Part shown: in pieces, positions 5,074 to 61,742 of the stretch
Layout of the letters: each line of letters begins with the position of its first letter
Numbering within the stretch: position 1 is the first letter of the stretch
Source of the DNA: Crambe crambe
Lineage: Eukaryota > Porifera > Demospongiae > Poecilosclerida > Crambeidae
Direction: 5' to 3'
Length of the DNA stretch: 64,000 nucleotides
NCBI GenBank assembly: GCA_963924555.1
Contig: OZ004587.1
Coordinates: 2,852,001 to 2,916,000 of the forward strand
Program-made: the position numbers and the translations under genes
Notes under the pieces: model-generated
Seen by the model: the letters and a program-made list of their open reading frames with translations, nothing else
Databases searched by the model: none
What the model was told of the DNA's origin: nothing

Positions 5074-5293
5074 CAGAGCAAGAAGAAAGCTACCAGCCCC
5101 ACAGCTACAATGCCCCACCACAGTTCCCAAAATCAAATTCCCAAATGAAATCAGGTTATATTACCATTACTCTAAGGAATTAACTGAAAAGGTGTAATTT
5201 TCAAAACTTGACTTTTGAGAAAAAAATTAATATCTATGAAATCTGTTGCTCCTTGGTAAGAGCTAGGTTGGAGTCATCAAGAAATAAGCTATT

Positions 5294-8200: not shown

Positions 8201-8845
8201 ATTGCTTTCTTCTTTCTTCCTTACACCATCTTTCTTCTTTTGGGTTACAAGCTCTATTATTTCTCTGAGAATAGATGCCTCCACTGGTTCATGATTAGGA
8301 TGAAGCCGCTACTAGACTCCTACTATGCTCCCTATGAGAAACACACACGTTACTGGACTGGTCTCCTTCTGTTGGTTCGCTGTGCTCTCTACATCATTTT
8401 CTCATTTGATTCAATTGGAGGAACTGACAATAGCCTTCTAGCCATCATCACAACATTTACTGCTATTTTAACCATCGCTTGGTTCTCTGTCAAAATCTAT
8501 AAGACTTTTTATGTGAATGCTATAGAAGCTTTGGTCTACTTGAACCTGATTATTCTCTCAGCTGCAACATCCATCAAAGTCAACTCTTTAGGACTGGTTT
8601 ATTCACTTATTGGAATGGTGTTTGCCATCATGGTAGGGATCATCTATTATCATTTTCACCTCCTGTACATCACCAAGTCAACGTTGTGGCTTAAATTCAC
8701 TTCAAAATTAACCAATATCAGAAAGAGATTGAGAAATGTGACTGATGCTGAAAGAGCTCCACTTGTTCATCCTTCAGATGCCAGATATGTGACAAAATCA
8801 GTTATAACCCTACGGGAATCGTTAATGGAAGAACCTTGCACATGA
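5294..8845 (+). CDS. Pmp-like beta-helix ectodomain, multi-pass membrane protein (copy 2)
   Basis: A single open frame of 1,183 residues without introns. Residues 1-19 are a signal peptide. Residues about 20-480 form a right-handed beta-helix region with about ten GGA/GGI turns (GGAMLI, GGAIYA, GGAVVT, GGAITA, GGAILG, GGAISL, GGAMYL, GGAIFH), the pattern of chlamydial Pmp repeats, and many N-glycosylation sites. A Cys-rich juxtamembrane part follows (about 560-785, with LCGACATNHS). About nine hydrophobic segments span 787-1126, reminiscent of the TRP-like membrane region of fungal and animal multi-pass proteins. The tail is short and basic, ending EEPCT. It is probably a cell-surface receptor or transporter-like protein; ligand and function are unknown. 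The start is supported by the signal peptide and by copy 3. Confidence 0.9.
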   Translation: MFALKCTTFLALLLNASFGDIYYVKPDNLSASCNSLPCLTLNQYAAEQSQYFTTGSTFLFLDGVHSTHTTILLRNVSSIILRGRSTDSTLCKINMAIQCEDVSNLTLQGMTLAFTGGTQKNSSALSVIKGNKILFLDVKFQNDQAKCSMRAVYLNHSNVTVEKCNFIGNTAYDGGAMLITDNSNITLNGNLFIGNSAKDRGGAIYASRSELFSKNNKFSDNFAVIAGGIYFEQCKCTALSANFINNLASHTGGAVVTKLTRVTYHDITVTGNSGTAIFIYRSNVSFIGNTTMSKNNGSVGGAITAEASSISFNGHTLFEGNYAEVEGGAVAGLVRVAFIFSGVTIFVNNNATTEGGGAILGTVDTELLLNGSVFFKNNNCTSCYGGAISLTGRSRITICEITTFKSNWGEMGGAMYLRDSNVILKQNSSIITLHNSAKYYGGAIFHMDNINYFQCNFAINMEYQKSDVLILLPDCFLELENFKFSQSIKTTLYEIYSYNDSAGIDGQFIYGGLMDKCHVIDTNESVVEYDLLYNIVMNYRILHIEPNGTNGTNTISSEAYTLCFCDNDLQYDCLENKSVTVSTIRGSRFNVSVLALSQGNTITAPVLIAEVGKTARLGLNQKTKNLIPNCTTLSYNMYSTEEKEVMKLYPDKSCRDTGLAVANIEVIFLPCPDGFNKSLDQCVCEERLRKYNAKCTVYDEQNYITRNSGSNFWVGAIYFSNGSYQGLILCGSICPIDYCKTADINITLRQPDVQCDFNHSGKLCGACATNHSLMLGNRNSRCQKCSNNYILLLIAFAAAGIILVAFLSILRLTVAPGMINSIILYANIVQANKTIFFPNLSVNILTVFIAWMNLDLGIPTCFYHGMDAYAHTWLQFVFPIYIWILLSLIIITSRHSTFITKLIGSNPIAVLATLLLMSYTKILKTLIEIYSSVQLEYPDNKKVSAWLKDANMHYLKSQHLILAVVGSIFIAFFFLPYTIFLLLGYKLYYFSENRCLHWFMIRMKPLLDSYYAPYEKHTRYWTGLLLLVRCALYIIFSFDSIGGTDNSLLAIITTFTAILTIAWFSVKIYKTFYVNAIEALVYLNLIILSAATSIKVNSLGLVYSLIGMVFAIMVGIIYYHFHLLYITKSTLWLKFTSKLTNIRKRLRNVTDAERAPLVHPSDARYVTKSVITLRESLMEEPCT

Positions 8846-13240: not shown

Positions 13241-13460
13241 CAGAGCAAGAAGAAAGCTACCAGCCCCACAGCTACAATGCCCCACCACAGTTCCCAAAAT
13301 CAAATTCCCAAATGAAATCAGGTTATATTGCCATTACTCTAAGGAATTAACTGAAAAGGTGTAATTTTCAAAACTTGACTTTTGAGAAAAAAATTAATAT
13401 CTATGAAATCTGTTGCTCCTTGGTAAGAGCTAGGTTGGAGTCATCAAGAAATAAGCTATT

Positions 13461-16400
13461 ATGTTTGCTTTAAAATGTACGACATTCCTGGCACTACTGC
13501 TGAATGCTTCTTTTGGAGATATTTATTATGTGAAGCCAGACAACTTATCTGCAAGCTGTAACAGTCTACCATGTCTGACTCTAAACCAGTATGCTGCAGA
13601 GCAAAACCAATACTTCACTACTGGATCTACTTTTCTATTCTTAGATGGAGTGCATAGTACTCACACTACTATCCTCCTTAGAAATGTGTCTAGTATTATT
13701 CTCAGAGGAAGAAGCACTGATTCTACACTGTGCAAGATTAATATGGCCATTCAGTGTGAAGATGTTTCAAATTTAACACTTCAAGGTATGACATTAGCAT
13801 TTACTGGTGGAACACAGAAAAACTCATCAGTTCTGAGTATCATTAATGGCAATAAATTTTTGTTTCTTGATGTGAAATTTCAAAATGATCAAGCTAAATG
13901 CTCAATGAGAGCAGTGTATTTGAATCACTCCAATGTCACTATTGAAAACTGCAACTTTATTGGAAACACTGCATACGATGGTGGAGCTATGCTTATAACA
14001 GATAATAGTAACATCACTTTAAATGGAAATCTCTTCATTGGAAATAGTGCAAAGGACAGAGGAGGTGCCATTTATGCATCTCAATCAGAACTGTTCAGTA
14101 AAAATAACAAATTTAGTAACAATTTTGCAGTAGAAGCTGGTAGCATTTACTTTGAACAGTGCAAATGTACTGCATTGTCAGCAAACTTCATCAACAACTC
14201 GGCTTCACATACTGGTGGAGCTGTAGTTACTAAATTGACTAGAGTAACATACCATGACATCACTGTTACAGGCAATTCAGGAACTGCCATATTCATTTAT
14301 AGAAGCAACGTTAGCTTTATCGGAAATACAACAATGAGTAAAAATAATGGATCTGTTGGTGGAGCAATAACAGCAGAAGCATCATCGATCTCCTTCAATG
14401 GTCACACACTCTTTGAAGGAAACTATGCTGAAGTAGAAGGTGGAGCTGTTGCTGGATTAGTAAGAGTAGCTTTCATATTCTCTGGAGTCACCATCTTTGT
14501 TAATAACAATGCCACGACAGAAGGTGGTGGAGCTATTCTAGGAACAGTGCATACAGAATTACTGTTGAATGGATCTGTCCTCTTTAAGAATAATAACTGC
14601 ACTTCTTGTTATGGTGGAGCAATTTCTTTAACACAAAGAAGCCGCATCACCATTTGTAACATCACCACCTTTGAGTCTAACTGGGGAGAAATGGGAGGAG
14701 CCATGTATTTGAGAGATTCAAATGTAATTTTGCAACAACATTCATCAATTGTCACATTACACAACAGAGCTAAATGTTATGGAGGTGCTATATTCCATAT
14801 GGATAATATTATTTACTTTCAGTGCAACTTTGCAATAAATACAGAATACCAAAAGAGGGATGTTCTCATTCTGCTTCCTGACTGTTTCCTTGAATTAGAG
14901 AATTTTAAGTTCAGTCAAAGCATTACATCCACTCTTTATGAAATATATTCATGCAATGATTCAGCTGGCATTGATGGACAGTTCATCTATGGAGGTTTGA
15001 TGGACAAGTGTCGTGTTATTGATACTCATGAAAATATAATCCGGTATGACTTACTTTACAATATAGTTATGAACTATCACATCCTCCATATTGAACCAAA
15101 TGGGACCAATGGAACTAATACAATATCATCTGAAGCTTATACATTATGTTTTTGTGATAATGATCTGGAATATGACTGTTTAGAAAATAGAAATATATCC
15201 ACAATCAGAGGCAGCAGATTTAATGTGTCTGTTCTGGCATTATCACAAGGAAACACTATCACTGCACCAGTATTAATAGCTGAAGTGGGAAAAACAGCAA
15301 GACTAGGACTGAACCAGAATACAAGAAATCTCTCAGCAAACTGCACTGATTTATCCTATAACATGTATTCTACTGAAGAAAAGGAGGTGATGAAGCTTTA
15401 TCCAGATAAATCTTGTCGAGATACAGGACTGGCTGTAGCCAATATTGAAGTAATCTTTCTAGATTGTCCATATGGATTCGCTAAATCACTTGATCGATGT
15501 GTATGTGAAGAACGACTGCAAAAGTATAACGCAGAATGCACTGTATATGATGAAGAAAACTATATAAGAAGAAATAATGGCCCTAAATTCTGGGTGGGTG
15601 CACACTTCAGTAATGGCAGTTATCAAGGCTTGATTTTGTATCGGTCATGTCCAACTGACTACTGCAAGACTGGTGATGTTAACATCACCTTGAGACAACC
15701 AGATGTTCAGTGCAACTTCAATCACAGTGGAACGCTTTGTGGAGCTTGTGCCACCAATCACAGCCTCTTGCTTGGTAATTCTAGGTGTCAAAAGTGTTCT
15801 AACAACTACATACTTCTTCTGATTGCTTTTGCTGCTGCTGGAATTATTCTAGTTATCTTCCTCTCCATTCTCAGACTGACAGTGGCCACTGGAATGATAA
15901 ACAGCATCATACTCTATGCTAACATTGTGCAGGCAAACAAAACTATCTTTTTTCCCGAGTCAGGCATAAATATCTTAACTGTGTTCATAGCCTGGATGAA
16001 TCTAGACCTTGGCATACCAACCTGTTTCTATCATGGAATGGACGCATATGCACATACTTGGCTCCAATTTGTCTTTCCTATCTACATCTGGATCTTGCTA
16101 AGCTTGATAATCATTACAAGTAGGTACTCCACCTTTATTACTAAATTAATAGGGTCCAACCCTATAGCTGTCCTGGCTACTCTATTAATAATGTCCTATA
16201 CTAAAATATTGAAAACTCTCATTGAAATTTACTCTTCAGTACAATTAGAGTATCCAAGCAATAAGAAAGTAACTGTGTGGTTCAAAGATGCCAGTATATC
16301 TTACTTGAAGTCCAAGCATCTGATACTAGCAGTAGCTGGTTCCATATTCATTGCTTTCTTCTTTCTTCCTTACACCATCTTTCTTCTTTTGGGTTACAAG

Positions 16401-16994
16401 CTCTATTATTTCTCTGAGAATAGATGCATCCATTGGTTCATGATTAGGATGAAGCCACTACTAGACTCCTACTATGCTCCCTATAAGAAACACACACGTT
16501 ACTGGACTGGTCTCCTTCTGTTGGTTCGCTGTGCTCTCTACATCATTTTCTTATTTGATTCAATTGGAGGAACTGACAATAGCCTTCTAGCCATCATCAC
16601 TACATTTACTGCTATTCTAGCCATTGCTTGGTTCTCTGTCAAAATCTATCAGACTTTTTATGTAAATGCAATAGAAGCGTTGGTCTACTTGAATCTGATT
16701 ATTCTCTCAGCTGCAACATCCAACAAAATAAACTCTTTGGTGCTGGTCTATTCACTTGTTGGAATGGTATTTGCCATCATGTTGGGGATTATCTACTATC
16801 ATTTCCATATCCTCTATATCACCGAATCAACAGTGTGGCTTAAATTCACTTTGAAATTAGCCTATTTTAGGAGGAGATTAAGAAATAAGACTGATGCTGA
16901 AAGAGCTCCACTTATTCCTCCTTCAGATTCCAGACATGTGACGAAATCAGTTCTTAACCTACGGGAATCATTGATGGAAGAACCTTGCACATGA
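13461..16994 (+). CDS. Pmp-like beta-helix ectodomain, multi-pass membrane protein (copy 3)
   Basis: An intronless frame of 1,177 residues, collinear with copy 2 and very similar. It has the same signal peptide, GGA-turn beta-helix, Cys-rich neck and about nine membrane segments. Differences include one degenerate turn (GSIYF in place of GGIYF), small in-frame indels near residues 575, 725 and 770, and clusters of substitutions in the neck and the extramembrane loop near 8100/16260. The membrane region is nearly unchanged. All indels keep the frame, so the protein is probably still under selection. Homology with the array stops soon after the TGA at 16992-16994, which marks the right edge of the duplicated unit. 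Function unknown; surface receptor-like. Confidence 0.9.
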   Translation: MFALKCTTFLALLLNASFGDIYYVKPDNLSASCNSLPCLTLNQYAAEQNQYFTTGSTFLFLDGVHSTHTTILLRNVSSIILRGRSTDSTLCKINMAIQCEDVSNLTLQGMTLAFTGGTQKNSSVLSIINGNKFLFLDVKFQNDQAKCSMRAVYLNHSNVTIENCNFIGNTAYDGGAMLITDNSNITLNGNLFIGNSAKDRGGAIYASQSELFSKNNKFSNNFAVEAGSIYFEQCKCTALSANFINNSASHTGGAVVTKLTRVTYHDITVTGNSGTAIFIYRSNVSFIGNTTMSKNNGSVGGAITAEASSISFNGHTLFEGNYAEVEGGAVAGLVRVAFIFSGVTIFVNNNATTEGGGAILGTVHTELLLNGSVLFKNNNCTSCYGGAISLTQRSRITICNITTFESNWGEMGGAMYLRDSNVILQQHSSIVTLHNRAKCYGGAIFHMDNIIYFQCNFAINTEYQKRDVLILLPDCFLELENFKFSQSITSTLYEIYSCNDSAGIDGQFIYGGLMDKCRVIDTHENIIRYDLLYNIVMNYHILHIEPNGTNGTNTISSEAYTLCFCDNDLEYDCLENRNISTIRGSRFNVSVLALSQGNTITAPVLIAEVGKTARLGLNQNTRNLSANCTDLSYNMYSTEEKEVMKLYPDKSCRDTGLAVANIEVIFLDCPYGFAKSLDRCVCEERLQKYNAECTVYDEENYIRRNNGPKFWVGAHFSNGSYQGLILYRSCPTDYCKTGDVNITLRQPDVQCNFNHSGTLCGACATNHSLLLGNSRCQKCSNNYILLLIAFAAAGIILVIFLSILRLTVATGMINSIILYANIVQANKTIFFPESGINILTVFIAWMNLDLGIPTCFYHGMDAYAHTWLQFVFPIYIWILLSLIIITSRYSTFITKLIGSNPIAVLATLLIMSYTKILKTLIEIYSSVQLEYPSNKKVTVWFKDASISYLKSKHLILAVAGSIFIAFFFLPYTIFLLLGYKLYYFSENRCIHWFMIRMKPLLDSYYAPYKKHTRYWTGLLLLVRCALYIIFLFDSIGGTDNSLLAIITTFTAILAIAWFSVKIYQTFYVNAIEALVYLNLIILSAATSNKINSLVLVYSLVGMVFAIMLGIIYYHFHILYITESTVWLKFTLKLAYFRRRLRNKTDAERAPLIPPSDSRHVTKSVLNLRESLMEEPCT

Positions 16995-30835: not shown

Positions 30836-32294
30836 ATGCAACATCTAAGAATTATAGCATTCATCACTCTCTTAGCAACAGTAACCAAAGCATCATTGGA
30901 GCTTCCTTCTAAGGATCAAATAGACAACCTTGAAAAGAAAAATGGAAGTCTTAACACATCCCAAATTTTGGAGCCTGCTGAAAGCCATTTAGATGATCCT
31001 AATTATTTTGAAGGAGATTTGATTGTTTCACCAGAGACTATTGAAGCCTACTATGGAAAGCCAAATCAAACTGCTGTAAGTAACTACAGTGAAATTAATG
31101 GCAATCCTATAGTTTCAACTTTGATGATGTGTAGCTATAACCTTCATGTCAATCGCTTGCCCCACTAATGCATGATGACTTTCCCTCATTTACAATGTTA
31201 TGTAGCTATCTGCCCAACATTTTAACACAGGCACTAAAAACTCTAGTAATTAGCTAGCTATGCACAATTTTAATTATGGTAACACTCTATCATATATGTA
31301 GAATGAACGGGGCAAGAGAGCTGTCACAAGTAATAGGAACCTGCTGTGGCCAAGAGGGATAGTTTACTATACGTATGACTCCACCATTGACACTGCCACA
31401 CAGAGAATCATCCTGGGAGCCATTCGTGAGATAGAACGTGCAACATGCTTGCAGTTTCGACGTAGTTCTACAAGTGGTAACCTTATCGTATTCACTGGTT
31501 CTGGCACTGGTTGTACATCACGTTTAGGAAGAAGTGGAGGAAGGCAGCTGATAACATTACCAGGTACATGTGGAACTCACAGAATAGTCCTCCATGAGAT
31601 ATGCCATGCACTTGGAATGTGGCATGAACAGAGTCGACCTGATAGGGATCTTTATGTGCAAGTCTTGAATGAAAATATTAAAATGAATAAACGGGATCAG
31701 TTTAGCAAAAGACTTCCATCTGAGATTGATCACTATCGACAAGGATACGATTATGCTTCTGTCATGCATTACGAAATAAATGCATTTTCTGTGAATGGCA
31801 AAGATACTTTGAGAAGGCGTACTACTAACTTAGCTAATTCAGCTTATATAAGACAGGGTCAACCAAATATAGGCAGGGTAAACCGCTTAAGTGCCAGTGA
31901 CATCATTCAACTGAATCGAATGTATGGATGTACGAGAGGAAGACTGCGTTTCTATGCTCGCCATGGTATCAATCTACAAGATAGAGATGGATGGTTTGCT
32001 GGTAGAAGTGATCCTTATGTCCGAGTGATTGCTTACAGCAACTTTGGTTATTCAAAACGTCTACAAACACGGCATGATCAAGGTGATCAGAGTCCAGAAT
32101 GGAACCAATGGCTGGACTTTGGCATAGACAGCTGGACAAGGTTCACTGTCCAGGTTTTTGATCGTGATGTCGGGAGAGATGACTCACTCTCAAGCACAAC
32201 CACCTACTACCTCAATACACACATCTCACAGAGAAATGTATGCAAGAACTGTAATCGTGGCCACATCTATTTCGACTATTTCTTTCAACCTTGA
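30836..32294 (+). CDS. Secreted astacin metalloprotease with C-terminal C2 domain (copy 1)
   Basis: Two exons (30836-31075 and 31302-32294, phase 0) give 410 residues. Residues 1-19 are a signal peptide. The propeptide has the FEGD motif (58-61), whose Asp blocks zinc in astacin zymogens. GKR-AV (84-88) is a likely proprotein cleavage site. The catalytic domain carries HEICHALGMWHEQSRPDRD (zinc His178, His182 and His188, general base Glu179) and the Met-turn SVMHY (Met235, Tyr237). Residues about 290-410 form a C2-type domain (DRDGWFAGRSDPYV, then FTVQVFDRDVG), probably binding calcium or phospholipid. It should act outside the cell on matrix or secreted substrates. C2 is an unusual partner in place of the common EGF/CUB domains. 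Confidence 0.92.
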
Positions 32295-37001: not shown

Positions 37002-39669
37002 CAGTGGCGTATATAGCTTGTTTCCTAGTTGCCTGGAAACCCCCCAAAGGTCAGAGGAGGAGCTGAAACCACATGTCTATAGGTGTTAATATGTAGCTAT
37101 CAAAACACTTAGCTAGTGTGGTACGTAGCTACGTCTATAGCTTGAGTCAAGATGAAGCGGTTGACAGCCTTTTTTCCTGTGGCAGAAAAGAGACCTAGGT
37201 CCAACCAACCCCCATCACAACATGTTGATCTTCTACAACCAGTCCCAGAGACAAGTCAGGTAACTGCACTGGAAGATTCTAATCCTTTGCATGGTCCTTC
37301 ACTGGCTAGAAATGATATTGGTAGTTATACTTCTGCTGACTTAAGGAAACTCTCTAATGATGAGAAACTTTGGCTTCTTCGGAATGCCTTTAGGCCACCA
37401 AGTGAGTATAAATTCCCTACTAAAGAAGAGTATGGCAAGAGGCGCTCATTTCAACATGCTTGGATTAAGCAATTCCCTTGGCTGTGTTATTCTGTGTCAT
37501 GTAATGGTGGATATTGTATTAATTGTGTTCTTTTTGCAAAACGCTACTTGAATCTTGGCCAGCTTGTGACATCTGGTATGACTAATTTTACTCGTGCCAA
37601 AGTTACTCTAATTGAGCATAGCAATCAGACTTCTCATAAAATGGCTAGTGAGGATGCTATTGATTTTATCAGCCATGCTGAGCAGGGTAGACCCTCTGTG
37701 AGCCAGCTTTTACAAGATGGAGCTTCAAGTGCTATTTTACAAAACCGTCTTAAACTAAAGTCTATTCTAAAGACAATAGTGTTTTGTGGTAAACAAATGA
37801 TATCTCTAAGAGGACATCGTGAGCAAGCTAATCAAGGCTCAAACCAAGGTAACTTCCGTGCTCTTTTAGACTTCCGCATTGATGCAGGTGATGTAGTACT
37901 AGCTGAGCATTTCAAAAATGCACCACGAAATGCTCAGTATAATTCTCCACTAATTCAAAATGACCTTATTGTTTGTATTGGAGAATGGATAAGAGAGAAA
38001 ATCCTCCATGAAGTCCGTGAAGCCAAATTTTTTTCTGTCATTGCAGATGAAGCAGCTGATTGTTCTAACAAGGAACAACTTCCATTAGTACTTCGGTTTG
38101 TTGATAGCAGTGGAGTAATACGTGAAGAATTTATCGAATTTATCTTTTGTGATACTGGTACAACAGGAAGTGCACTTTCAAATAAAATATTGGAAGCTTT
38201 AAAAGGATATAGCCTTGACTTAAATTATCTTCGTGGTCAGGCATATGACGGAGCAGGTAATATGGCTGGAAAATATCAAGGTGCTGCTGCATGCATTCAG
38301 TCATCTTACCCCAAAGCTGTGTATGTGCACTGTGCTGCTCATACTCTTAACCTTTGTGTAGTAGCTGCCTGTAAAATCCAATTTGTGCAAAACATGATGA
38401 GCACAATGGTGAAAATTTGCCTTTTCTTCTCTAATTCACCTAAGCGTGAATTAGAATTGGAGACAAATATTCGAGCTATGAATTCTAGTAAGGCAACAAA
38501 GCTAGTTAGTTTGTGTAAAACTCGTTGGGTGGCACGTATTGATGCACTTGAAGTATTTTTTGATCTCTATCCAACTGTAGTTCATACATTGGAGGTAATT
38601 AGCTCAGGTAGTGCAGGTGGTTGGAATAGTGATTCATGTAGCTCGGCTAATAGTCTTCTTACCTGCATTACACAGTTTCAATTTGTCATTTCTTTCATAG
38701 TGACAAGCAAATGCCTGGGATACATCAAGGGGCTCACAATATCACTTCAGAAGAAGGCCAAAGATATCTGTCATGCATACAAGGAAGTCAGTACCGTAGA
38801 AAGAGCACTTAATGAAGTACGTAAAAATATTGATACACAACATAAGAAATGGTTTGATGATGCAGTTGCTCTTGGGAGTAAAATTAATGCTTCTGAGCCT
38901 CAGTTACCTAGATGCTGCAGTCGTCAGACAGCAAGGAGCAACACTCCAGGTGACAAACCAGAGATATATTATAAGCGTTCCATTTCCATCCCTTTCATTG
39001 ATGAATTGCTTGGACATTTAAAGTCTCATTTTTCTGATATTCAGCAAAAAGCAACAAAAGGTATGACTATGGTACCATCAGTTCTGATGGATAAAACTTC
39101 ACCTCATTCTAGTATAGATGAGCTAAGAGATTACTATAGTGAAGATTTACCATCCCCTTCCTCACTAGAATCAGAGCTTCATTTATGGAAATGTAAGTGG
39201 ACTTCATTTATACAGCCTTTACCAGATACTCCTGCTAAAGCTTTGTCATTTGCCAATGAAAGTATGTTCCCTAACATACACCGACTTTTGCATATAATTT
39301 GCACTATCCCAGTAACCAGCTGTGAGTGTGAACGGAGTGTTAGTGTCCTTCGTCGGCTAAAGACATATCTTCGGTCTACCATGTGTCAAGACAGACTAAG
39401 TGGACTTGCTTTAATGCACATCCAGTACAGTATGCACTTAGATTTAGATGAAATTATTAACATTTTTGCTAGAAAGCATCCTCGCAGGATGTTACTGGCA
39501 GACATCTTAAATGACTAACATATTCTTCTATTATTAATACATAGTTAATAACGTCACCCTCTACTTATTAAATGGGTGTGGTTAAGTCAAAAGTGGGTGT
39601 GGCCAAGCAAAAAATTTCCGGTGCGCAAGTAGCAGAAACCCCTCCATTCCATTTCTAGTTACGCCCTTG
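37002..39669 (+). mobile_element. Autonomous hAT-type transposon, 5-bp target duplication
   Basis: A 2,668-bp element with short ends CAGTGGCGTA and (reverse) CAAGGGCGTA, flanked by a perfect atacg duplication (36997-37001 and 39670-39674). Astacin copy 1 gives the empty site (actatacgtatgac near 31366-31379). Most hAT elements make 8-bp duplications; a 5-bp one fits a subgroup catalogued as hAT5 (from memory). The subterminal GTGGGTGTGGCCAAG resembles that of the MITE at 24085. Confidence 0.92.
37152..39518 (+). CDS. hAT transposase with TTF-type zinc finger and DUF4371-like core
   Basis: 788 residues in one open exon. The N-terminus (KRLTAFFPVAEKRPR) is basic. A TTF-type zinc-finger region lies at about 95-140 (FPWLCYS, then NGGYCINCVLFAK). 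The RNase H-like core follows, with VIADEAADC (first Asp, about residue 299) and GQAYDGAGNM (second Asp, about 364), then VHCAAHTLNLCV. The C-terminal dimerisation region has CECERSVSVLRRLKTYLRST (about 723-742) carrying the catalytic Glu. Length and motif order match ZMYM/TTF-type hAT proteins of animals. No frameshift or stop is seen, so it could be active. Confidence 0.92.
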   Translation: MKRLTAFFPVAEKRPRSNQPPSQHVDLLQPVPETSQVTALEDSNPLHGPSLARNDIGSYTSADLRKLSNDEKLWLLRNAFRPPSEYKFPTKEEYGKRRSFQHAWIKQFPWLCYSVSCNGGYCINCVLFAKRYLNLGQLVTSGMTNFTRAKVTLIEHSNQTSHKMASEDAIDFISHAEQGRPSVSQLLQDGASSAILQNRLKLKSILKTIVFCGKQMISLRGHREQANQGSNQGNFRALLDFRIDAGDVVLAEHFKNAPRNAQYNSPLIQNDLIVCIGEWIREKILHEVREAKFFSVIADEAADCSNKEQLPLVLRFVDSSGVIREEFIEFIFCDTGTTGSALSNKILEALKGYSLDLNYLRGQAYDGAGNMAGKYQGAAACIQSSYPKAVYVHCAAHTLNLCVVAACKIQFVQNMMSTMVKICLFFSNSPKRELELETNIRAMNSSKATKLVSLCKTRWVARIDALEVFFDLYPTVVHTLEVISSGSAGGWNSDSCSSANSLLTCITQFQFVISFIVTSKCLGYIKGLTISLQKKAKDICHAYKEVSTVERALNEVRKNIDTQHKKWFDDAVALGSKINASEPQLPRCCSRQTARSNTPGDKPEIYYKRSISIPFIDELLGHLKSHFSDIQQKATKGMTMVPSVLMDKTSPHSSIDELRDYYSEDLPSPSSLESELHLWKCKWTSFIQPLPDTPAKALSFANESMFPNIHRLLHIICTIPVTSCECERSVSVLRRLKTYLRSTMCQDRLSGLALMHIQYSMHLDLDEIINIFARKHPRRMLLADILND

Positions 39670-40601
39670 ATACGTATGATTCCACCATTGACACTGCCAC
39701 ACAGAGCATCATCCTGGGAGCCATTCGTGAGATAGAACGTGAAACGTGCTTGCAGTTTCAACATAGGTGTACAAGTAGTAACCTTATCGTATTCACTGGT
39801 TCGGGTACTGGTTGTACATCATATATAGGAAGAAGAGGAGGAAGGCAGCTGATAACATTACCAGGTACATGTGGAACTCACAGAATAGTCCTCCATGAGA
39901 TATGCCATGCACTTGGAATGTGGCATGAACAGAGTCGACCTGATAGGGATCTTTATGTGCAAGTCTTGAATGAAAATATTGAAATGAATAAACGGGATCA
40001 GTTTAACAAAAGACTTCCATCTGAGATTGATCACTATCGACAAGGATATGATTATGCTTCTGTCATGCATTACAGATTAAACGCATTTTCTACGAATGGC
40101 AGAGATACTTTGAGAAGGCATACTACTAACTTAGCTAATTCAGCTTATACAAGACAGGGTCGACCAAATATAGGCAGGGAAAACCGCTTAAGCGCCAGTG
40201 ACATCATTCAACTGAATCGAATGTACGGTTGTAACTCGAGAGGAAGACTGCGTTTCTATGCTCGCCATGGTATCAATCTACAAGATAGAGATGGATGGTT
40301 TGCTGGTAGAAGTGATCCTTATGTCCGAGTGATTGCTTACAGCCACTTTGGTTATTCAAAACGTCTACAAACACGGCATGATCAAGGCGATCAGAGTCCA
40401 GAATGGAACCAATGGCTGGACTTTGGCATAGACAGCTGGACAAGGTTCACTGTCCAGGTTTTTGATCGTGATGTCGGGAGTGATGACTCACTCTCAAGCA
40501 CAACCACCTATTACCTTAATAATACACGCATCTCACGGAGAAATGTACGCAAGAACTGTAATCGTGGCCACATCTATTTCGACTATTTCTTTCAACCTTG
40601 A

Positions 40602-52557: not shown

Positions 52558-53275
52558 TATCTATCAATTTGCTGCATAGCTATATAATTCTTAAGGAAGC
52601 TATCCTTATATGGAACATTATTAACATAGCCATAGCCTTAATTGCATGGCTGTGTACGTTTACCTCCAAGGTGACTGGATTATAATTTTGCCATAGATTT
52701 ATATCATAGTTAGAAGATGTCTTTAATTAGATTTAGTGCCAGGGTCCTATTTATTTGAATTCATAGAAGTGTAGTACCCTAGCCCTAGCCTAGTTATAAG
52801 TTATTATAGCAGGATGTGCAGAATTTAGACCACTGGAGTAGCTAGCTATACAGATTGGGTAGCTATGATTAAGTGATCACTCTGTGATACTATATAGTCT
52901 GAATTAAGTACGTAGTAGAAATGGCTCCATGATGTACAGTAGCTATTGTCAGGGAACATAGTTATCGCACCCTTAATTGAGCTTAATGATTTACCTAGCT
53001 AGATGCAAGCATATTACAGTAGCTTTTGACATTATGATTATGTAGGTTAGCTACTTACCATAAAGATTTTTAGACCAGTCAGCTCCCTTTTAGTAGCGAA
53101 GTGCATGGAGTCTGCCCAAAAATAACGTGATCCAATAACCTTATATGAACTAACTAATAGCCTAATAATAACATGGGTAGTGAAAAGTATGAGTAGATAG
53201 TGAATTCCTAATAGCTACATCAAAGGAGCAACCAATATGGCCCTTATGGATAGTAGCACTATATATGCAAGTTTA
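52558..53275. other. Intergenic, nothing recognised
   Basis: AT-rich sequence upstream of the Calx-beta gene. A possible upstream non-coding exon cannot be excluded. Confidence 0.35.
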
Positions 53276-53643
53276 GGCCACATCAAATTAATTACTTGTT
53301 TATCATCCTAATTTCTTCAAAAATTAGGAGAGGGGGGAGGCTTTTATTTTTATTTTTTATTGGTTTCCATGGCACCTGTTTAAAAAGCTATCATTATGAA
53401 AACATACAAAAAGCTGAAGTTCCACTGAAAACAAGTTAAAAGTAGTAGCTGCACACTTTATTTGAAGAATAACAAACACCATAATTTAATAGCCACCAAA
53501 ACTGAAATTATACTGAAAATCACGCCTAAATTTCAAATAAAGTACACCATGCACATGCTCAGTAGAAATAAAATTAAAAATCCAGAAGAGCAAAAATTAG
53601 GAGAGGGAGGGGATGATAAACAAGTAATTAAGTTGATGTGGCC
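53276..53643. mobile_element. PIF/Harbinger-like MITE
   Basis: Inverted repeats of about 33 bp (GGCCACATCAAATTAATTAC at the left) bound a 368-bp unit flanked by TTA (53273-53275 and 53644-53646). A 3-bp TTA/TAA duplication with GG-starting ends is typical of PIF/Harbinger elements. Confidence 0.75.
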
Positions 53644-53722
53644 TTATATATAGCTAAATTCTTGCTTGCTAGCTGCTACCTGGTGGAAATATAGCAAGAC
53701 ACTGAAGATCTGCTGAGACACT

Positions 53723-53755: not shown

Positions 53756-54336
53756 GAGAAGCTGGAAGTTTTGGGAGGGAAGCTTCCCCCCATTTACATA
53801 ATGTCTCCATTGACTTTGTTTTTATGTAGAGAACAATTTATCATGATGGATATCTTGAATCAGATGAAAAGTCACTAAGTTCTGACTCACTCATCACATC
53901 ATGCATTGTACTAGTGAAACTTTTCGCATGAAAACTCGTTGCCATTGTTATTGTTTTTGTTTCCTTTTGTTGTTGTTTATAATAATCATAACACTGGACA
54001 CATAACCACATAATGAGATTCATCTGAATCTGCACTGAGCATGCGTCAATTAGCATCCTTGCTTAGTTGGTGCTAGTGCTCGCACACACGCTATTATTAT
54101 AACTAGTGACTAAGAAAAGTGGGTAGGCAAATGCCTACCCAGTCAGATCGCTTCCTACAGCCCTGCCCACTGTTTATACAGATCTGACTTGGATTCCATT
54201 AACAAGCCTTAGCTTGCTTTTATTCTCAGATCGATTATGATCTTGTCCACTTTGCTCTGCTTAGTGAGTTAGTTGTTGCTCTGTTTAGTGAGTTAGTTGC
54301 AGCCTCGATCAACGTTTCATTAAGCACGTGCACAGG

Positions 54337-54434
54337 GTCACCCGGTTCACGAACTATTCCCAGCACGGGTACTGGAAAGAAATTGGAACTTACGCAGCAG
54401 ATCCAGTGGGTAAAAGTTCCTGAAAAATTAACCC
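54337..54434 (+). repeat. Left terminal inverted repeat of the KDZ transposon
   Basis: Pairs with 61419-61515. It contains GGGTACTGGAAAGAAATTGG and CGCAGCAGATCCAGTGGG. The near-identity of the two ends suggests recent mobility or ongoing homogenisation. Confidence 0.92.
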
Positions 54435-54513
54435 TTGCTATCCAGTAGCCTAGCGCCTGCGCAGTTCTGCACCACGTGTGCAAATTCAGTTGGAGTTTTT
54501 TTTTGTTTTTTTG

Positions 54514-57476
54514 ATGGATACTGATAGTAGTGCTTCTTGTAGTGAGGATGAAATTGCCAGCTCTTTAACCAAGAAGAAAGTGACCCGGTTCAGTGTGGCA
54601 CAGCGAGCATGCTTAAATTCCTACTGGTTCAATGGCTTGACTGGATGTGGAAAAAGGCATGCAGCTCTCATTTCCCAAGCAGCCAGTGATGCTCAACTAA
54701 GTATTCAGCAAGTAAAGGTAGTAAACTAACAGAACAGTAGTAAAAACTCACTACTAATTATTGATATGTAGAGATGGATAAAGAAAAAAAGTTACCGAAA
54801 GAGGCATTCTAAACCACAAGAAAGCCGGTTGCCTAGGCCTGTGAAGAAGCAACTGAAATTTACTCCATGGCAATGCTATTTGAAGGAGTATGGTGAATCA
54901 AGTGGTTAGTTAAACTAGAGTACATTCCATGCTGGCCATCAGCCCCACTCACCCCCTACCAGCAAATGGTACCTACACTGTGATAGTAATAATTATGATA
55001 TTGAACATTCCTTGTTCCGTGAAAAAGTATTCAATTGGAGTAGCTAGGTGGCAAAATCATTTAATAACTAGCCTAACTCACAGATAATCTGTGGCAATTT
55101 TCATGGTGTTTGTGTTCCTTGCTCTCTTCATCAGCCTAAGCTTCTGGTTTAGCTTGCTTGTTTGAGTGACATCATGCATAGAAATTTAGCTACGTGATAG
55201 ATGCATTAGAACTTTTCTACAATCACATAGGCTGATATTATTGTTAGTGTGCTTTATTTAGACTATCATTATAGCCGGCAGTTAGTTGGCCCCAAGCAAC
55301 ATTAATTAATTAATTGTTATGGCCTAAGTTACAACTAAATGCATTTTTAGCTGGGAAAGATGCAATGAAGAGTGGTGTGGGAGTATTCAATAAGAAGGCT
55401 AGCGAGATGTATTCGGCACTTCCTCAAAGTGAAAAGGATCGGCTTGTAAAGCTATCTGGTGATAATAATTCAACAGAAGTTATGTCACCCAAAGATGTTA
55501 TAAAAGCAGGCACTAAAGCCTTTAAAATTATTCATAAACAGGTATTAAGTTTTGTCTTTCAAACATTCAGAATGAATTCTCTACTTATGTATAGTTTAAG
55601 GAGTTAGAAAATATCGGTTATAGTGGCTTTGCTCTGGGTTTCTATGAGATGGATGTCCAAATGGTGAACACTAAGGACTGTGCAGCATGTATCACTGGAA
55701 AAGTTGTTGATTACCTACGATCTCTGATTGTTGCCGGTAAGCTTGTTGCTCTGTAACACTAGCTATCTATACTGTATAGTAATTTATTTAGGTCAGCCAC
55801 CACCAGAAGTGAAGAGTTTTTCTCGGTCACAGGCAACTTCACATGATTTCTCCACATCACATATTATATCCAAACCTGTTTCACATGTTCCTAATTCCTC
55901 TAAACAATCCATTCCATGCTCATTATCACAGACAAAACTCAATGAATCACCCTCTGATTCCTCTAAATCAAACTTGTATGCCTCTTCCTCTGGTTCCTCT
56001 AAACCTCTTCCTAAAACACGTCTGTCTCTCTCTCATTCTTCTAAATCTCATTCTTCTCCATCTAGTTTATCTGTTCCTTCCTCTAATTCATCATCCCTTT
56101 TTTATGCATCTTCCAAATCACACTCCCTCACATCACAAAAGTCCAAATTGAATCCATCAAAATCACACGTACTTCCACTTCAATCAGACTTCTTGACTTC
56201 ACATTCTTCACAATTACCTAATTCATTCACATCAACCTCTAAATCATTCATTCAATCATGTAAGTCAGTCACAGCTACCTGTTCTGGAATTTCTAATTCA
56301 TCTTCCTCAAGTTCTTGTCATTTATATCCACCCCTCTCTCAGAAGTCCATGTCATTCTCTGATCTACCTACTCCACATTCTGAACAAAGCAGCAATGTCG
56401 TCAAGCCTGCTCCCATTTTAAGTTCCTTATTAAATCAACACAACCCTCTGCCACTCAGTCTATCTCCTGACAAGCATTCACCACCACCTCCAGATCTTAA
56501 TCTACCTTCTGACAAGTATTCATTGCCACCTCCAAATCATACTTTCAACCTACCACATCTTTCAAATCATTCACTACAAGATCAATATTCACTACCACCT
56601 GAAGGATCACTATCTCCTGTTATTCCACTACAAAATATTAAGCATACTTTCACTTCTGAGCATGGTTCGCCATCCACCCCATTTATTATTTCAGCAAGTC
56701 CTTATAAATCTCAAGAGAAACTATGGATACCTCAGCATAATTTGACCTTTGCAGATAAAGAAATGATAGAGAGCAGGAATTCATGGCTAAATGATGGCAT
56801 TATTTTCTGCGCACAGAAAATGCTGAGTAAAAAAATTTGTCTCCTCAGTGTGGTGACAGGAGAAGGTTGTTTGATACTTTGGCCCAAAATGTCCCTTTTG
56901 TGCAAGTAATGCACACAATGAATAGTCACTGGATTGCTGTTTCTAACATCAAAGACTCCCAGGGTAGTGTGCATACCGATTCTATATCTATATGACAGCC
57001 TCCACGGCCCAGCTTTGGAACAAAAAGTGAAATTGGGAATATGTTCATTCATGCGACCAGCAGTAGGTACCTTGCGTTTTGATATTATGAATGTTGATGG
57101 CCAGCTCAACTCCAGTGACTGTGGGGTGTATGCCCTTGCATATGCTACTGAGATAGCCTTTGGCAGTGATCCCCTTCGTTGTCTATGGGATCATGAGAAA
57201 ATGCGTCCTCATCTGAAAACCTGCCTGGAACATGGTGAAATGCTTAAGTTTCCTCGTAAGGGAGAAAGACACCTTCGTTTGGGAAGAAGAATCATCAAGT
57301 CAATTTCAGAACAGATTTTATGCATGCCCAATGAAAGACACAAACCAATGATAGAGTGTGGGTGTTGCCTTAAGTGGTTTCACCTTGAGTGTGTGAATCT
57401 TAAAGAGGAATCGTATAAGGAAATTAAGTGGCTGTGTCCTGAATGCAAATCCTTTATAAGACAGATACAGAAGTAA
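54514..57476 (+). CDS. Homeodomain-like / Ulp1 protease / PHD finger protein of the KDZ transposon
   Basis: The predicted exons are 54514-54717, 54772-54904, 55351-55541, 55600-55736 and 55792 onward. Residues 1-85 look like a homeodomain-type helix-turn-helix (QRACLNSYWFNG, then QQVKRWIKKKSYRKR across the splice). A Ser/Pro-rich linker of about 290 residues follows. The Ulp1/C48 protease has WLNDGIIFCAQKML, the catalytic His in HTMNSHWIAVS, the Asp in YLYDSLHG and the Cys in NSSDCGVYALAYA. A PHD finger ends the protein (CGCCLKWFHLECV, then WLCPECKSF). As read, the frame changes at an A7 run (56829-56835) and again near 56985. It is either a damaged gene, sequence errors, or unrecognised introns. 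A role in SUMO processing or transposase maturation is inference. Confidence 0.78.
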
Positions 57477-57688
57477 ATGTTTTATTAATAGATAGCTATT
57501 GGTTACTAGTAATTTATTATACTCATACAGTAGCTGTTTATATAATATTATATATGAAAATTTTGCAAAAAGCACAAGCTAATCAAATACCAGCCTTATT
57601 GTTGGGGGAGGGAGAGAAAAACCCAAGTGCTAAGATGAAACCACATCTTCTGATAGCTTTTTATTATGATTTGGGTTCTCAGCAACTG

Positions 57689-57781
57689 TACTGGATTTGG
57701 GTTCCATTCTGCCAGTAAGTGTACTGGACGTGGGTTCCATTCTGCCAGCAAGTTTACTGGATTTAGGTTCCACTCTGGGTT
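57689..57781. repeat. 33-bp tandem repeat, about 2.8 units
   Basis: Units of 33 bp start tactggattt/tactggacgt and contain gggttccattctgccag. They lie between the 3' ends of the two convergent transposon genes. Confidence 0.7.
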
Positions 57782-57907
57782 CCACTCTTGTCATGGGATT
57801 GGCATGTCAGTTAGTGTCTCTACTCTGCCAGCAACTGTTTAGACATGCTTAGATATGGGTCACACTCAAAGAATGCTTGAAAATAAATATCCAGCAAACC
57901 TGTTCAG

Positions 57908-60900
57908 TCAACATCGCTATCACTACAATCACTATTGTCATCAGAAAAGTCACTGTCACTGTAAGCTTCATTACTGGTGTTGCCTTGGTTCATAGCACCA
58001 ATGACTGCTTTAGGTAAAAATCATTGTCACTAAGGAGCTGTTTCAACATTGCTACAGCTCCTTGGCTAAACAAGTTGTTTTGACTAGAAAAGTTGCTTAG
58101 TTGTACAAGCACGTATTTCTTTCTCTGTTCATAGTACTGAACCAGCAACAAGACTTCTTTTTTCAGCATTACCAGCTCTTCTTGTGATTGACAAAGCATT
58201 GAATATGCATCAATAATGCGACGCTTATTCCCAGTAGCAATGGAAGTGTACTTTCTGCTCAGTCCACTAAGATGTCCTTCAATTGTTCTTGGATCCAATG
58301 CTTCAGCCATAGTGAGAGAATCGTCTAATTTCAATGGAGAGTTGCAGACAGCATTGTACTCTCTTAGCAGTATCTTCACTGAAGCCGTCTCCTTTGAAAT
58401 CTGCTTGCTGAGTTTTATAGCTATCTTCTGTCCATCTGCATAATTGTAGTCATGAAGATGGAATTGCATTTATTGTAACAGCTAGCACACCTGCATACTT
58501 CTTCAAATTCAGCAAAAAGGATCTTTTTTGTCCACTCTTCCACATAGAAATCAGCAAGTGCTCCCTTTTGGTAAGTGAAAGAGTGCATAAGCATTCAGTA
58601 TATTCCTTGTCAGACTGAGACCACCGATATTGAATCCTGTACTTCTTTTCTATTTCTTCTAGTCGCCTATTCAATCTATGAACAACTTGTAAATGCAGTG
58701 ATTCTTCAATGCAAATAATAATACATACTGTGTAGATTGTCCACCACTAACACTGCCAGTACTCCCCGACAAGAGTTGATCCCTGTAAGAAATACACTTG
58801 CTGGCATACAGGTAAGTATAAAATTAATTGTGCAACCTTAAAGCATAATAAATTTGAAGTGTCTGAACATACTCAGATTTCCACTGAACCAATCCTATAT
58901 ACATGTATCACAGAATAAGCGATATTTCATGGCATGCTTGATGTTAATAATATAAAGGACCTACTTGCTCCTGGCTTATACTGACAACTACGGACAACCA
59001 TCTGATTATCTCACCCTGGATCTTTTCATCTACATAATGAGAGAGGTTTCTACATTACATAGCTGACACAATAATAAAAACACATACCATGGAAAAAATT
59101 AGGGATAAGTTCATTCAATATCTCTTCAGCAAGTGCTTTGCATTTATAAGCTCTATCCCACCGCATAAGAAGCAGAGAAGCTATACAATAATATGCTAAC
59201 ATGCTATACACTCTACATATATAAAGATGATCTTAAAATTTTCACCTAGCTTGTTTTTAGTCTTGATTCCATAGTATGCTAGGGCACTTGAGAGGATGTC
59301 AATACGATGTGATGGTCTCATTTCCTTTGTCATCCGATTAAACCTACGTAGATATGACCATAATCGTTCCATGGTCTCCCCATCACTAAGACCAATTCCT
59401 TGACATCTCCGGGGGCCATAGAGAACCCATAATACATTCATGCGGTAACTCCACTACATGACTGCAGGGACTGATACTTACCTGGCAAGAAACTACATGT
59501 CCATATGAATGGAAAGTTGGCAAACACAAAGAAACACTCTGAAGAATGTCAAACCTTTTAAGATTCTGCAGGAGTAATTTTTGGATGTAAGCAAACTACC
59601 GTCACCTATAGACTACATACCTTCAAGTGCTTGGAGAGAGAACAAGCAATGTCATACACGACAAAAAGTTTTGATCCTGACCCAGCATGAGTAGAGATAA
59701 TGTTCTCTAACATCCAAACAGGGTATGCCAATCTAATGGTATAACAATAATGCATGGAAACAGCCACATGATAATTATCATACTCACTTCAAATTTACGA
59801 ACTTTCCTGGGAACTCATGCCGGCAACAATACCCGAACACACCCGTCTCATCCAATGCATTATATCGCCTAGCACTGCGAAGCATGTTTCCCGCAAGAAA
59901 ATCATTACATTCCTATGATAGCATGTGTGATTACTATTACATCACTGAACGAATGTATCAGGCTTACATTCACAATAATTGTAGACTTTCTTGTACTGTC
60001 CTCTGCAATGAACTGGTCAACAGCAGACTGGTCCTCAAAAAATAACTCCTTATGGAGGAGAGCTCTAAAACTTGTGCCTGCAGATTTTTTTCGTGGCAAA
60101 CCGAAGATGGCATCCATAGCAAATACCAAATTATTGGATGGCACATCATCTAAATTTTTATAATTATAGTTCAGGATGTAAGTTACATTAAACTATTTAG
60201 CTACCTTCACATTGGACATTTTGAGGACATGCTGGATACCTGTTTCCCAGATCAAGGCTTTCACACAAATAATTCATGTGTCGAAGATTATGCCTTAAAA
60301 ATCTATAGCGTAAAATAAAAAAATAATTAATAAATAAATTCCCTGCTGTAATTATTTGGCTACCTGTACTCTTCAAAACAGTCAATGAGAGCAGAATATA
60401 CTTCTCTTCTTTGAGGAACCAAGAAAGGGCAATAAAATTTTAGTACACTGCAAAAGTTTTTCAGTGACACTTGGCACTCTAATAGTAGAGCTTTAACCAA
60501 ATTTAGTAGCTCAAATGTAAATGCTAAGCAAGGATTCTTGGGGGTAGCTGGCCATAACTTTGCACGGGATAAAGTTACTGCAGCTGGTTCACAGTTACAG
60601 CACACGAAACTCACTTCATGCTCTATCCCTGCAAACGTGATGCAGTATATAATTGCTACTAATAATTATAAAATAGTTTCATACCATATTCATCAATAAC
60701 CCGAATCTTTATATCTCTTTTACTCTCACATTCAAAATAGTGCCTCTTTCTGACATCCACATGTCGACAAATTCCAAAAATTGGTACAAAATGATCATCC
60801 TATAATGAAATGCATTACATTTTACAACCGAATTCTATGTATGCCGGCAACATTCATGTGTGCATTATGTAATAGCAGTGATAGAAATAGGTACAGCTAT

Positions 60901-61341
60901 AGTAGCCAAGTTCTGAGTTTCATCTATGTCGGCCTTAATAAAATGTGACACATCACTTATTATTATTCTCACCTCCCATTTCTCTGGAATATGAAATATA
61001 TTGACTTTGCTGTGAAATTTTGGGAAGCACTGTGAGCAGAAGAAACCTTGAGGTCCACAACGCTGGCATTGTAAACAAGCCACTTCTGCACACATAATGC
61101 ACAATTGCCCCTGTGGCATAGCAGCATTTTCAGTCACTGCTGTCCTCAGTGCATTTCTTATCTCATTCCAGCCAGCAGCTGATGACTGACGAGACAACTC
61201 ATGTTCTGTGGGCTCAATGAAATCAGGTACCATGTCCACTAGTGGAGGTAGAGATTCCTGTAGCTCGCTGGAAGGATCACTTGGCCTGGGGTCTAGACAC
61301 TCAGCAGAAGCAGAAGAGTTACTCATGCTTCTGTGTACCAA
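57908..61341 (-). CDS. KDZ transposase with CxC zinc cluster, about 14 exons
   Basis: Exon 1 (61341-60973) carries the CxC cluster (CIMCAEVACLQCQRCG, FFCSQCFPKFH). The next exons start at 60799, 60628, 60302, 60149, 59912, 59732, 59565, 59453, 59180 and 59029, all with GT-AG borders and matching phase. Motifs typical of KDZ transposases appear in order: FAMDAIFGLPRKKSAG (first Asp), VVYDIACSLSKHLK (second Asp), FHSYGHVVSCQ, and GLSDGETMERLWSYLRR (catalytic Glu). A C-terminal helical part follows (RNase H-like core extension, NLKKYA-DGQKIAIKLSKQI across the splice at 58435). Joining near 58780 is uncertain. The frame stops at 57990, but a one-base shift in a T5 run near 58015 opens an acidic Asp/Ser tail to a stop at 57908. 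Confidence 0.83.
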
Positions 61342-61418
61342 AGTTGTAGATTTTGGTCTGTTGGTAGGCCTTTGAGCAGGTACTAGGTACGTACTAGGTT
61401 AATGTGCGTGCTTTAACG

Positions 61419-61515
61419 GGGTTAAATTTCAGGAACTTTTACCCACTGGATCTGCTGCGTAAGTTCCAATTTCTTTCCAGTACCCGTACTGGGAATAGTT
61501 CGTGAACCGGGTGAC
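61419..61515 (-). repeat. Right terminal inverted repeat of the KDZ transposon
   Basis: Reverse complement of 54337-54434 with very few differences. The transposase start codon lies about 80 bp inside it. Confidence 0.92.
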
Positions 61516-61742
61516 AGGGTATTACCAGATTCATGCACTTTGTACTTTTGACCTCAGTAAACATTGTCAGCTAGTGTACGTGTGCGATTAATCTATTTTC
61601 TTGGTTTACGAAGCTCACCCAATCCACTTTACTTCCAATTCACATCTTCACTTTGAAATCATCAGATTGACTTGTAAGTTGACATTAGATAATATGACAA
61701 ATGAATCATCACATATTCGTACAGTTCTGACTGGTGAGATTG
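61516..61742. other. Short 5' region between transposon end and CARD gene
   Basis: Only 234 bp separate the right end of the KDZ element from the ATG of the next gene, so its promoter must lie here or inside the transposon. Confidence 0.5.

Follow-up and report, generated by a model that had tools for sequence, protein, structure and literature searches.

A KDZ DNA transposon of the sponge Crambe crambe with a convergent homeodomain-like/Ulp1/PHD companion gene

Does a gene that lies beside a KDZ transposase, between the same pair of inverted repeats, belong to the transposon, and what might it do there? The question is raised by a 64,000-nucleotide stretch of the Crambe crambe genome (hereafter the window; C10:2852001-2916000 of genome G000, whose 143 Mb in 119 contigs were also searched for related copies). 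The window contains a two-gene, cut-and-paste KDZ DNA transposon of 7,175 bp at 54339-61513. Inverted arms of 98 nt with 95% complementarity were detected at 54337-54434 and 61418-61515. Alignment with other copies places the true tip at CACCCGGTTCA, and two chance bases were therefore trimmed from each arm, leaving terminal inverted repeats (TIRs) of about 96 bp at 54339-54434 (plus strand) and 61418-61513 (minus strand). The near-identical ends of roughly 97 bp described in the original prediction are thus real. Comparison with other copies also delimits a perfect 7-bp direct target site duplication, ACAGGGT, which flanks the element on the left (54332-54338) and right (61514-61520). Two convergent genes lie between the TIRs. 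The KDZ transposase occupies the minus strand, and the plus strand carries a companion which, judged by its sequence, joins a homeodomain-like N-terminus to a Ulp1/SENP-type protease and a PHD finger, the arrangement that the original prediction had proposed.

The organization of both genes is clearest in a full-length sister copy on C1 (8794548-8801970; locus L007), found by searching with one end of the element. It is 96.6% identical to the window copy over a 7,230-column alignment and is flanked by its own target duplication, CAAAATG. Both genes of L007 are intact and stand tail-to-tail, with a KDZ transposase of 867 aa encoded by 14 exons and a companion of 799 aa encoded by five (splicing assigned by GT/AG and reading frame, without transcripts). 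The window copy is defective, with both genes broken while those of the sister copy are intact. Compared to L007, it has 13 missing stretches of 2 to 80 bp and two extra stretches, most of which look like losses in the window copy. The two copies are only about 1% diverged (~45 substitutions), yet they differ by 15 indels, ten of them of 9-80 bp.

The five companion exons were placed in the window by comparison with L007. Exon 1 (54514-54717) encodes the homeodomain-like part, recognized by a profile match, up to an intron inside the recognition helix; exon 2 (54772-54904) supplies the remainder of that helix and a linker. Exons 3 (55351-55541, no fold assigned) and 4 (55601-55736) encode regions conserved in the alignment of companions. 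An HMG-box reading of exon 3, suggested by eye, was dropped after a search gave no support. Exon 5 (55792-57476), broken in the window, encodes a Ser/Pro-rich linker followed by the protease and the PHD finger, the last two also identified by Pfam. The Ulp1 domain matches Peptidase C48 and has the catalytic His-Asp-Gln-Cys, and the PHD finger matches the Pfam PHD model and has its zinc ligands. The claim of a SUMO-type protease with His, Asp and Cys in place thus holds for the intact C1 copy and fails for the window, where the stretch from ~56838 to ~56988, containing the catalytic His, lies in a different frame from Asp and Cys. The window PHD finger has lost three residues at 57323, one Cys among them. 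At the other end of the protein, a profile of three N-terminal sequences matched PDB entry 2da4, which we take to be a homeobox structure, with an E value of 2e-5 over 56 residues and similarity across the whole domain. MATalpha2, Exd and PBX followed at E values of about 0.02-0.12. Annexin repeats matched at 0.002, probably by chance.

Counterparts of the 14 transposase exons of L007 span 57906-61376 on the minus strand (L007 comparison and Pfam). In the window, exon 1 lacks its start and exon 6 its end, and exons 11 and 14 are frameshifted relative to L007. The L007 protein matches the KDZ transposase domain PF18758 with 135.3 bits (cutoff 26.6, E 3.2e-39), and its CxC cluster matches CxC2 with 43.2 bits (cutoff 27) and CxC1 with 31.7 (cutoff 26.9); CxC3 reached 15.2 bits, under the cutoff of 26.6. 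The motifs FAMDAIF, YDIAC and DGExxER, which we take to hold the D, D and E catalytic positions, are present in L007 and in most relatives having those columns of an alignment in which some columns of C1, the window, C5b, C16, C18 and C3a are misplaced because high-scoring segment pairs (HSPs) were read into introns. A full KDZ transposase with CxC cluster and D, D, E motifs is therefore a property of the family, represented by L007, and the prediction of such a protein was wrong for the broken window copy itself.

Whether the two genes travel together can be judged from other KDZ loci. Genome searches with each protein, followed by local comparison, found KDZ and companion tail-to-tail at 10 of the 17 KDZ loci examined, with about a dozen other genome matches to KDZ outside this count. 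The paired loci are the window, C1, C5a, C5b, C18a and C18b (PHD end only), C11a, C11b, C9 and C3b. Apart from C1 and the window, matching protein segments are ~30-70% identical to those of the intact copy; over joined segments the identity is 0.31-0.46 in five lineages. Inverted ends bound four of the paired loci, with TIRs of about 96 bp in the window and C1, 51 bp in C5b and 32 bp in C5a. The C5b element (5555708-5562971) has the tip CACCCGGTTCA on both ends and the duplication CATGTTT. C5a (8370252-8377532) has inverted ends of its own with one damaged tip, and no target duplication was seen around it. Duplications of 7 bp hence accompany all three elements having both tips complete. C18a and C18b each retain one tip of the CACCCGGTTCA type; a right-hand TIR was not found for C18a, C18b or C3a, and no TIR was found for C11a or C9. 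A 215-column inverted repeat (C18:1280038-1280582 and C18:1298196-1298741) lies directly upstream of both C18 KDZ copies, and this repeat together with identical bases before both left tips suggests that the pair arose by segmental duplication and not by separate insertions. The homeodomain-like part was read in the window, C1, C9, C5a and C5b, and the N-terminal region, protease and PHD finger are recognizable across several diverged lineages. A further copy that has the two genes between the same ends, which the original prediction had asked for, is thus present on C1, and C5a and C5b keep the pair between related ends.

Fusions of Ulp1 and PHD are abundant beyond KDZ elements. A Ulp1-PHD query gave 156 genome matches, and among 30 loci taken for comparison 7 lie inside KDZ elements and 23 have no KDZ match in flanks of ~1.5 kb. 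In an unrooted tree of 31 Ulp1-PHD parts, which took in only the 8 companions with enough sequence, a split with an ultrafast bootstrap of 99 separates these companions from the 23 other loci. Integrase-like open frames stand beside some of the Ulp1-PHD loci L047-L070 and other open frames beside others. By eye, such an integrase-like frame adjoins L049-L052, and the one that was scanned gave a sub-threshold Pfam match only. It seems likely that Ulp1-PHD is a cassette shared across transposon types. The N-terminal region of the companion is rarer, with 15 matches at six loci genome-wide, five of which adjoin KDZ. No KDZ protein match was found within 3.1 kb of the sixth locus, which is on C20, but the DNA around it shares about 88-96% identity with the C18 elements, both in their arrays and on their KDZ side, and it is therefore a relic of a C18-type KDZ element. 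Searching this genome with the N-terminal region, we found no free-standing host-gene version of the companion, the presence of which would have told against the two-gene element.

Several of the elements also carry tandem arrays. In the window a 33-bp unit stands in three tandem copies between the 3' ends of the two genes (57680-57778; repeat search and shuffle test), and C1 has 4.5 copies there. C18a and C18b carry a 33-bp repeat in the same place, the C20 relic also carries one, and C5a and C5b have 34-bp repeats sited in a companion intron; no array of this kind was found in C11a or C9. Of the 33 positions of the repeat unit, 25 are the same in the window and C18, a level reached by 0 of 2000 shuffles. 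The window unit also resembles CCAGCAnnnGTACTGGA of its own TIR, with 0 of 300 shuffles as good for the left end and 4 of 300 for the right, and the C5 unit resembles its own TIR at both ends (0 of 300 each), among 21 combinations scored in all. Arrays thus occur in three lineages, with resemblance to the own TIR in two of them. The motif shared by TIR and array forms an approximate palindrome, the shape expected of a site bound by a dimer, and in our view the arrays are candidate sites for binding by a protein of the element. Across the genome, the TIR tip by itself shows no enrichment (21 matches versus 31 for a reversed control). Eleven of the 21 tip matches are ends of the studied KDZ loci or a solitary TIR on C13, whose similarity to the element is confined to the length of the TIR.

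SUMO is a main signal in transposon silencing. We suggest that the companion serves the element as an accessory protein and that it might counter silencing at the element's own DNA, a role that we prefer and give an even chance. The homeodomain-like part would bind the roughly palindromic motif in TIR and internal array, the PHD finger would contact histone H3 tails in active chromatin, and the Ulp1 domain would strip SUMO (or a similar modifier) off the transposase or off repressors bound to the element. The element could thereby stay accessible and its transposition be helped. A bolder version, which we put forward as a doubtful but possible reading, would make the companion an independent counterpart of RAG2 and VANC, with one protein locating the element, sensing chromatin state and reversing SUMO-dependent silencing on the spot. 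The homeodomain-like part would then recognize the ends and the internal arrays as operators, the PHD finger would read H3 and the protease would remove SUMO; this assignment of tasks is equally tentative.

Several observations weigh against an accessory role of this kind. No Pfam homeodomain model matched the whole companion, its N-terminal fragment or four aligned N-termini. The catalytic His, Asp and Cys are each in frame in only 6 of 8 aligned companions, the gaps being the window His, all three residues of C9 as aligned, and Cys in C11a, whose row stops short of it; the Asp of C3b falls in a gap of this 8-row alignment but is visible in another. The C18 array unit does not resemble its single TIR (78 of 300 shuffles as good). 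The strict palindrome CCASTACNNGTASTGG occurs at 11 genome places (2 for the reversed control), only two of which are KDZ ends, and was rejected as an element-specific mark. Seven of the 17 KDZ loci lack the companion in the DNA examined, namely C3a and six loci of a second group (C10:203k, 532k and 621k, C9:8.53M, C8:5.05M, C16:5.24M), one of which alone was read 3.3 kb downstream. Five of these six copies are very similar, four of the six loci have the tip CACCCGGTTCG, and an unrooted KDZ tree places the group next to the companion-bearing C5/C11a lineage with a support of 100, so that the companion may have been lost there. Across pairs of lineages, KDZ identity and companion identity are uncorrelated (rho -0.007; 15 pairs, six lineages) and give no sign of co-divergence of the two genes. 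The ratio of nonsynonymous to synonymous differences (pN/pS) between close copies, a sparse measure with some codons double-counted in overlapping HSPs, is clearly below 1 only for the C18 KDZ. The loci without companion, the uncorrelated distances and a possible degradation of the protease in C9 and C11a would all suit a gene captured as a passenger, irrelevant to transposition and carried along through its position between the ends. We regard this as distinctly improbable, because the companion keeps the same tail-to-tail place at 10 loci from lineages ~30-70% identical in protein, and at such distances a passenger should have decayed, whereas the N-terminal region, protease and PHD finger can still be recognized. 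The abundance of Ulp1-PHD sequences might even suggest that a KDZ element landed by chance next to a host gene for Ulp1-PHD and that the inverted repeats are accidental. Such a coincidence is scarcely credible and already contradicted by the C1 and C5 copies, since a second full-length copy and diverged copies hold both genes between related ends, three elements having target duplications.

Other readings accept the companion as part of the element and assign it a different task. It could mainly select targets in the manner of RAG2, with the PHD finger guiding the transposase to open chromatin methylated at H3K4 and the protease playing a secondary part. A convergent transposase with a PHD-bearing partner is the layout of RAGL transposons (PMC7204232), and the companion PHD finger resembles those of PHF8, PHF2 and BPTF. 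Targeting alone would leave the catalytic residues of the protease unneeded, although each is kept in most of the aligned companions. Among the PHF8-type aromatic positions, which we take to form the cage, the companion keeps only Met and Trp (alignment read by eye). We consider target selection unlikely as the main task, though worth serious weight. The protease might instead act on NEDD8 or ubiquitin, and the companion work through that pathway. In the predicted structure of the Ulp1-PHD part, an alignment-based prediction (single-sequence prediction gave a pLDDT, the predicted local distance difference test, of 31.9), NEDD8 proteases appear to fit the Ulp1 fold about as well. The profile search with the Ulp1 domain matched Ulp1-like protease and SENP1 (best 60 of 126 matches), and a Foldseek search with the predicted structure had SENP1, 3, 5 and 2 in its top rows. 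Neither of these settles the substrate; on balance we find a modifier other than SUMO improbable.

Anti-silencing by an accessory protein, the role that we prefer, can be set beside known systems as described in the papers cited. Fungal KDZ elements may carry a chromatin-related second gene, TET/JBP (PMC12730594), and the present element likewise combines a KDZ transposase having a CxC cluster with a second, possibly chromatin-related gene, which is here homeodomain-like/Ulp1/PHD. Two Kyakuja families of L. bicolor have 7-bp duplications and 5'-CA..TG-3' ends and lack TIRs (PMC12730594). The element shares the duplication length and the CA..TG ends, a likeness in these marks, and differs by its clear TIRs of about 96, 51 and 32 bp. 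It departs from Zisupton and a Dileera family, which have 8-bp duplications (PMC12730594), in each of the three elements with complete tips. In Cryptococcus, the TIRs of KDZ elements measure 139-241 bp and the duplications 4-8 bp (PMC12810828). In Ginger1 elements, e.g. Ginger1-9_HM, Ulp1 with PHD also lies inside a DNA transposon, as the C-terminal part of a Gypsy-integrase-like transposase (PMC2836005), whereas here the transposase is of the KDZ type and Ulp1-PHD is encoded by a convergent gene of its own, whose product has a homeodomain-like N-terminal part. RAGL transposons have two convergent genes between TIRs, the partner usually with a PHD, and a 5-bp duplication (PMC7204232). The resemblance is one of layout; the transposase here is KDZ by Pfam, the partner has Ulp1 and homeodomain-like parts in place of kelch, and the duplication is 7 bp. 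VANC of the Arabidopsis VANDAL elements binds motifs in noncoding tandem arrays sequence-specifically and counters silencing (PMC5735166). The arrays of candidate binding sites described here could play the same part; the protein here differs in having a Ulp1-type protease. In the Sola1-1_Ec32 element of Ectocarpus, too, the transposase and an accessory gene lie on opposite strands; the accessory product, there a ParB-like/DNA methyltransferase protein, is predicted to bind DNA and to modify it (PMC12477816).

A literature search found no description of a separate homeodomain-like/Ulp1/PHD gene in a KDZ element, which does not establish that none is in print. Accessory genes of KDZ elements and the Ulp1-PHD fusion of Ginger1 are known separately; their combination here as a two-gene pair appears to be new. 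To our knowledge, the Ulp1 domains of transposons have no proven role. They recur in unrelated DNA transposons (PMC2836005). Here the protease sits on a separate protein with DNA-binding-like and histone-reader-like domains, in an element with arrays of candidate sites, an arrangement that makes the question of why transposons carry SUMO proteases directly testable. The pair suggests a transposon equipped to act on host chromatin, in parallel to the two-gene RAG transposon and from a different transposase.

The surrounding sequence holds further features. About 1 kb outside the element, a 34-nt inverted repeat with 97% complementarity (53275-53308 and 53611-53644, 302 nt apart) is perhaps a small unit resembling a miniature inverted-repeat transposable element. 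Two open frames of 1185 and 1179 aa (5288-8845 and 13455-16994) have a Chlamydia-PMP repeat match at the same position and are possibly paralogues. Astacin metalloprotease frames with a C2 domain occur at 31302-32294 and 39633-40601, and between them lies a hAT-type frame with DUF4371 and hAT dimerisation domains (37146-39518).

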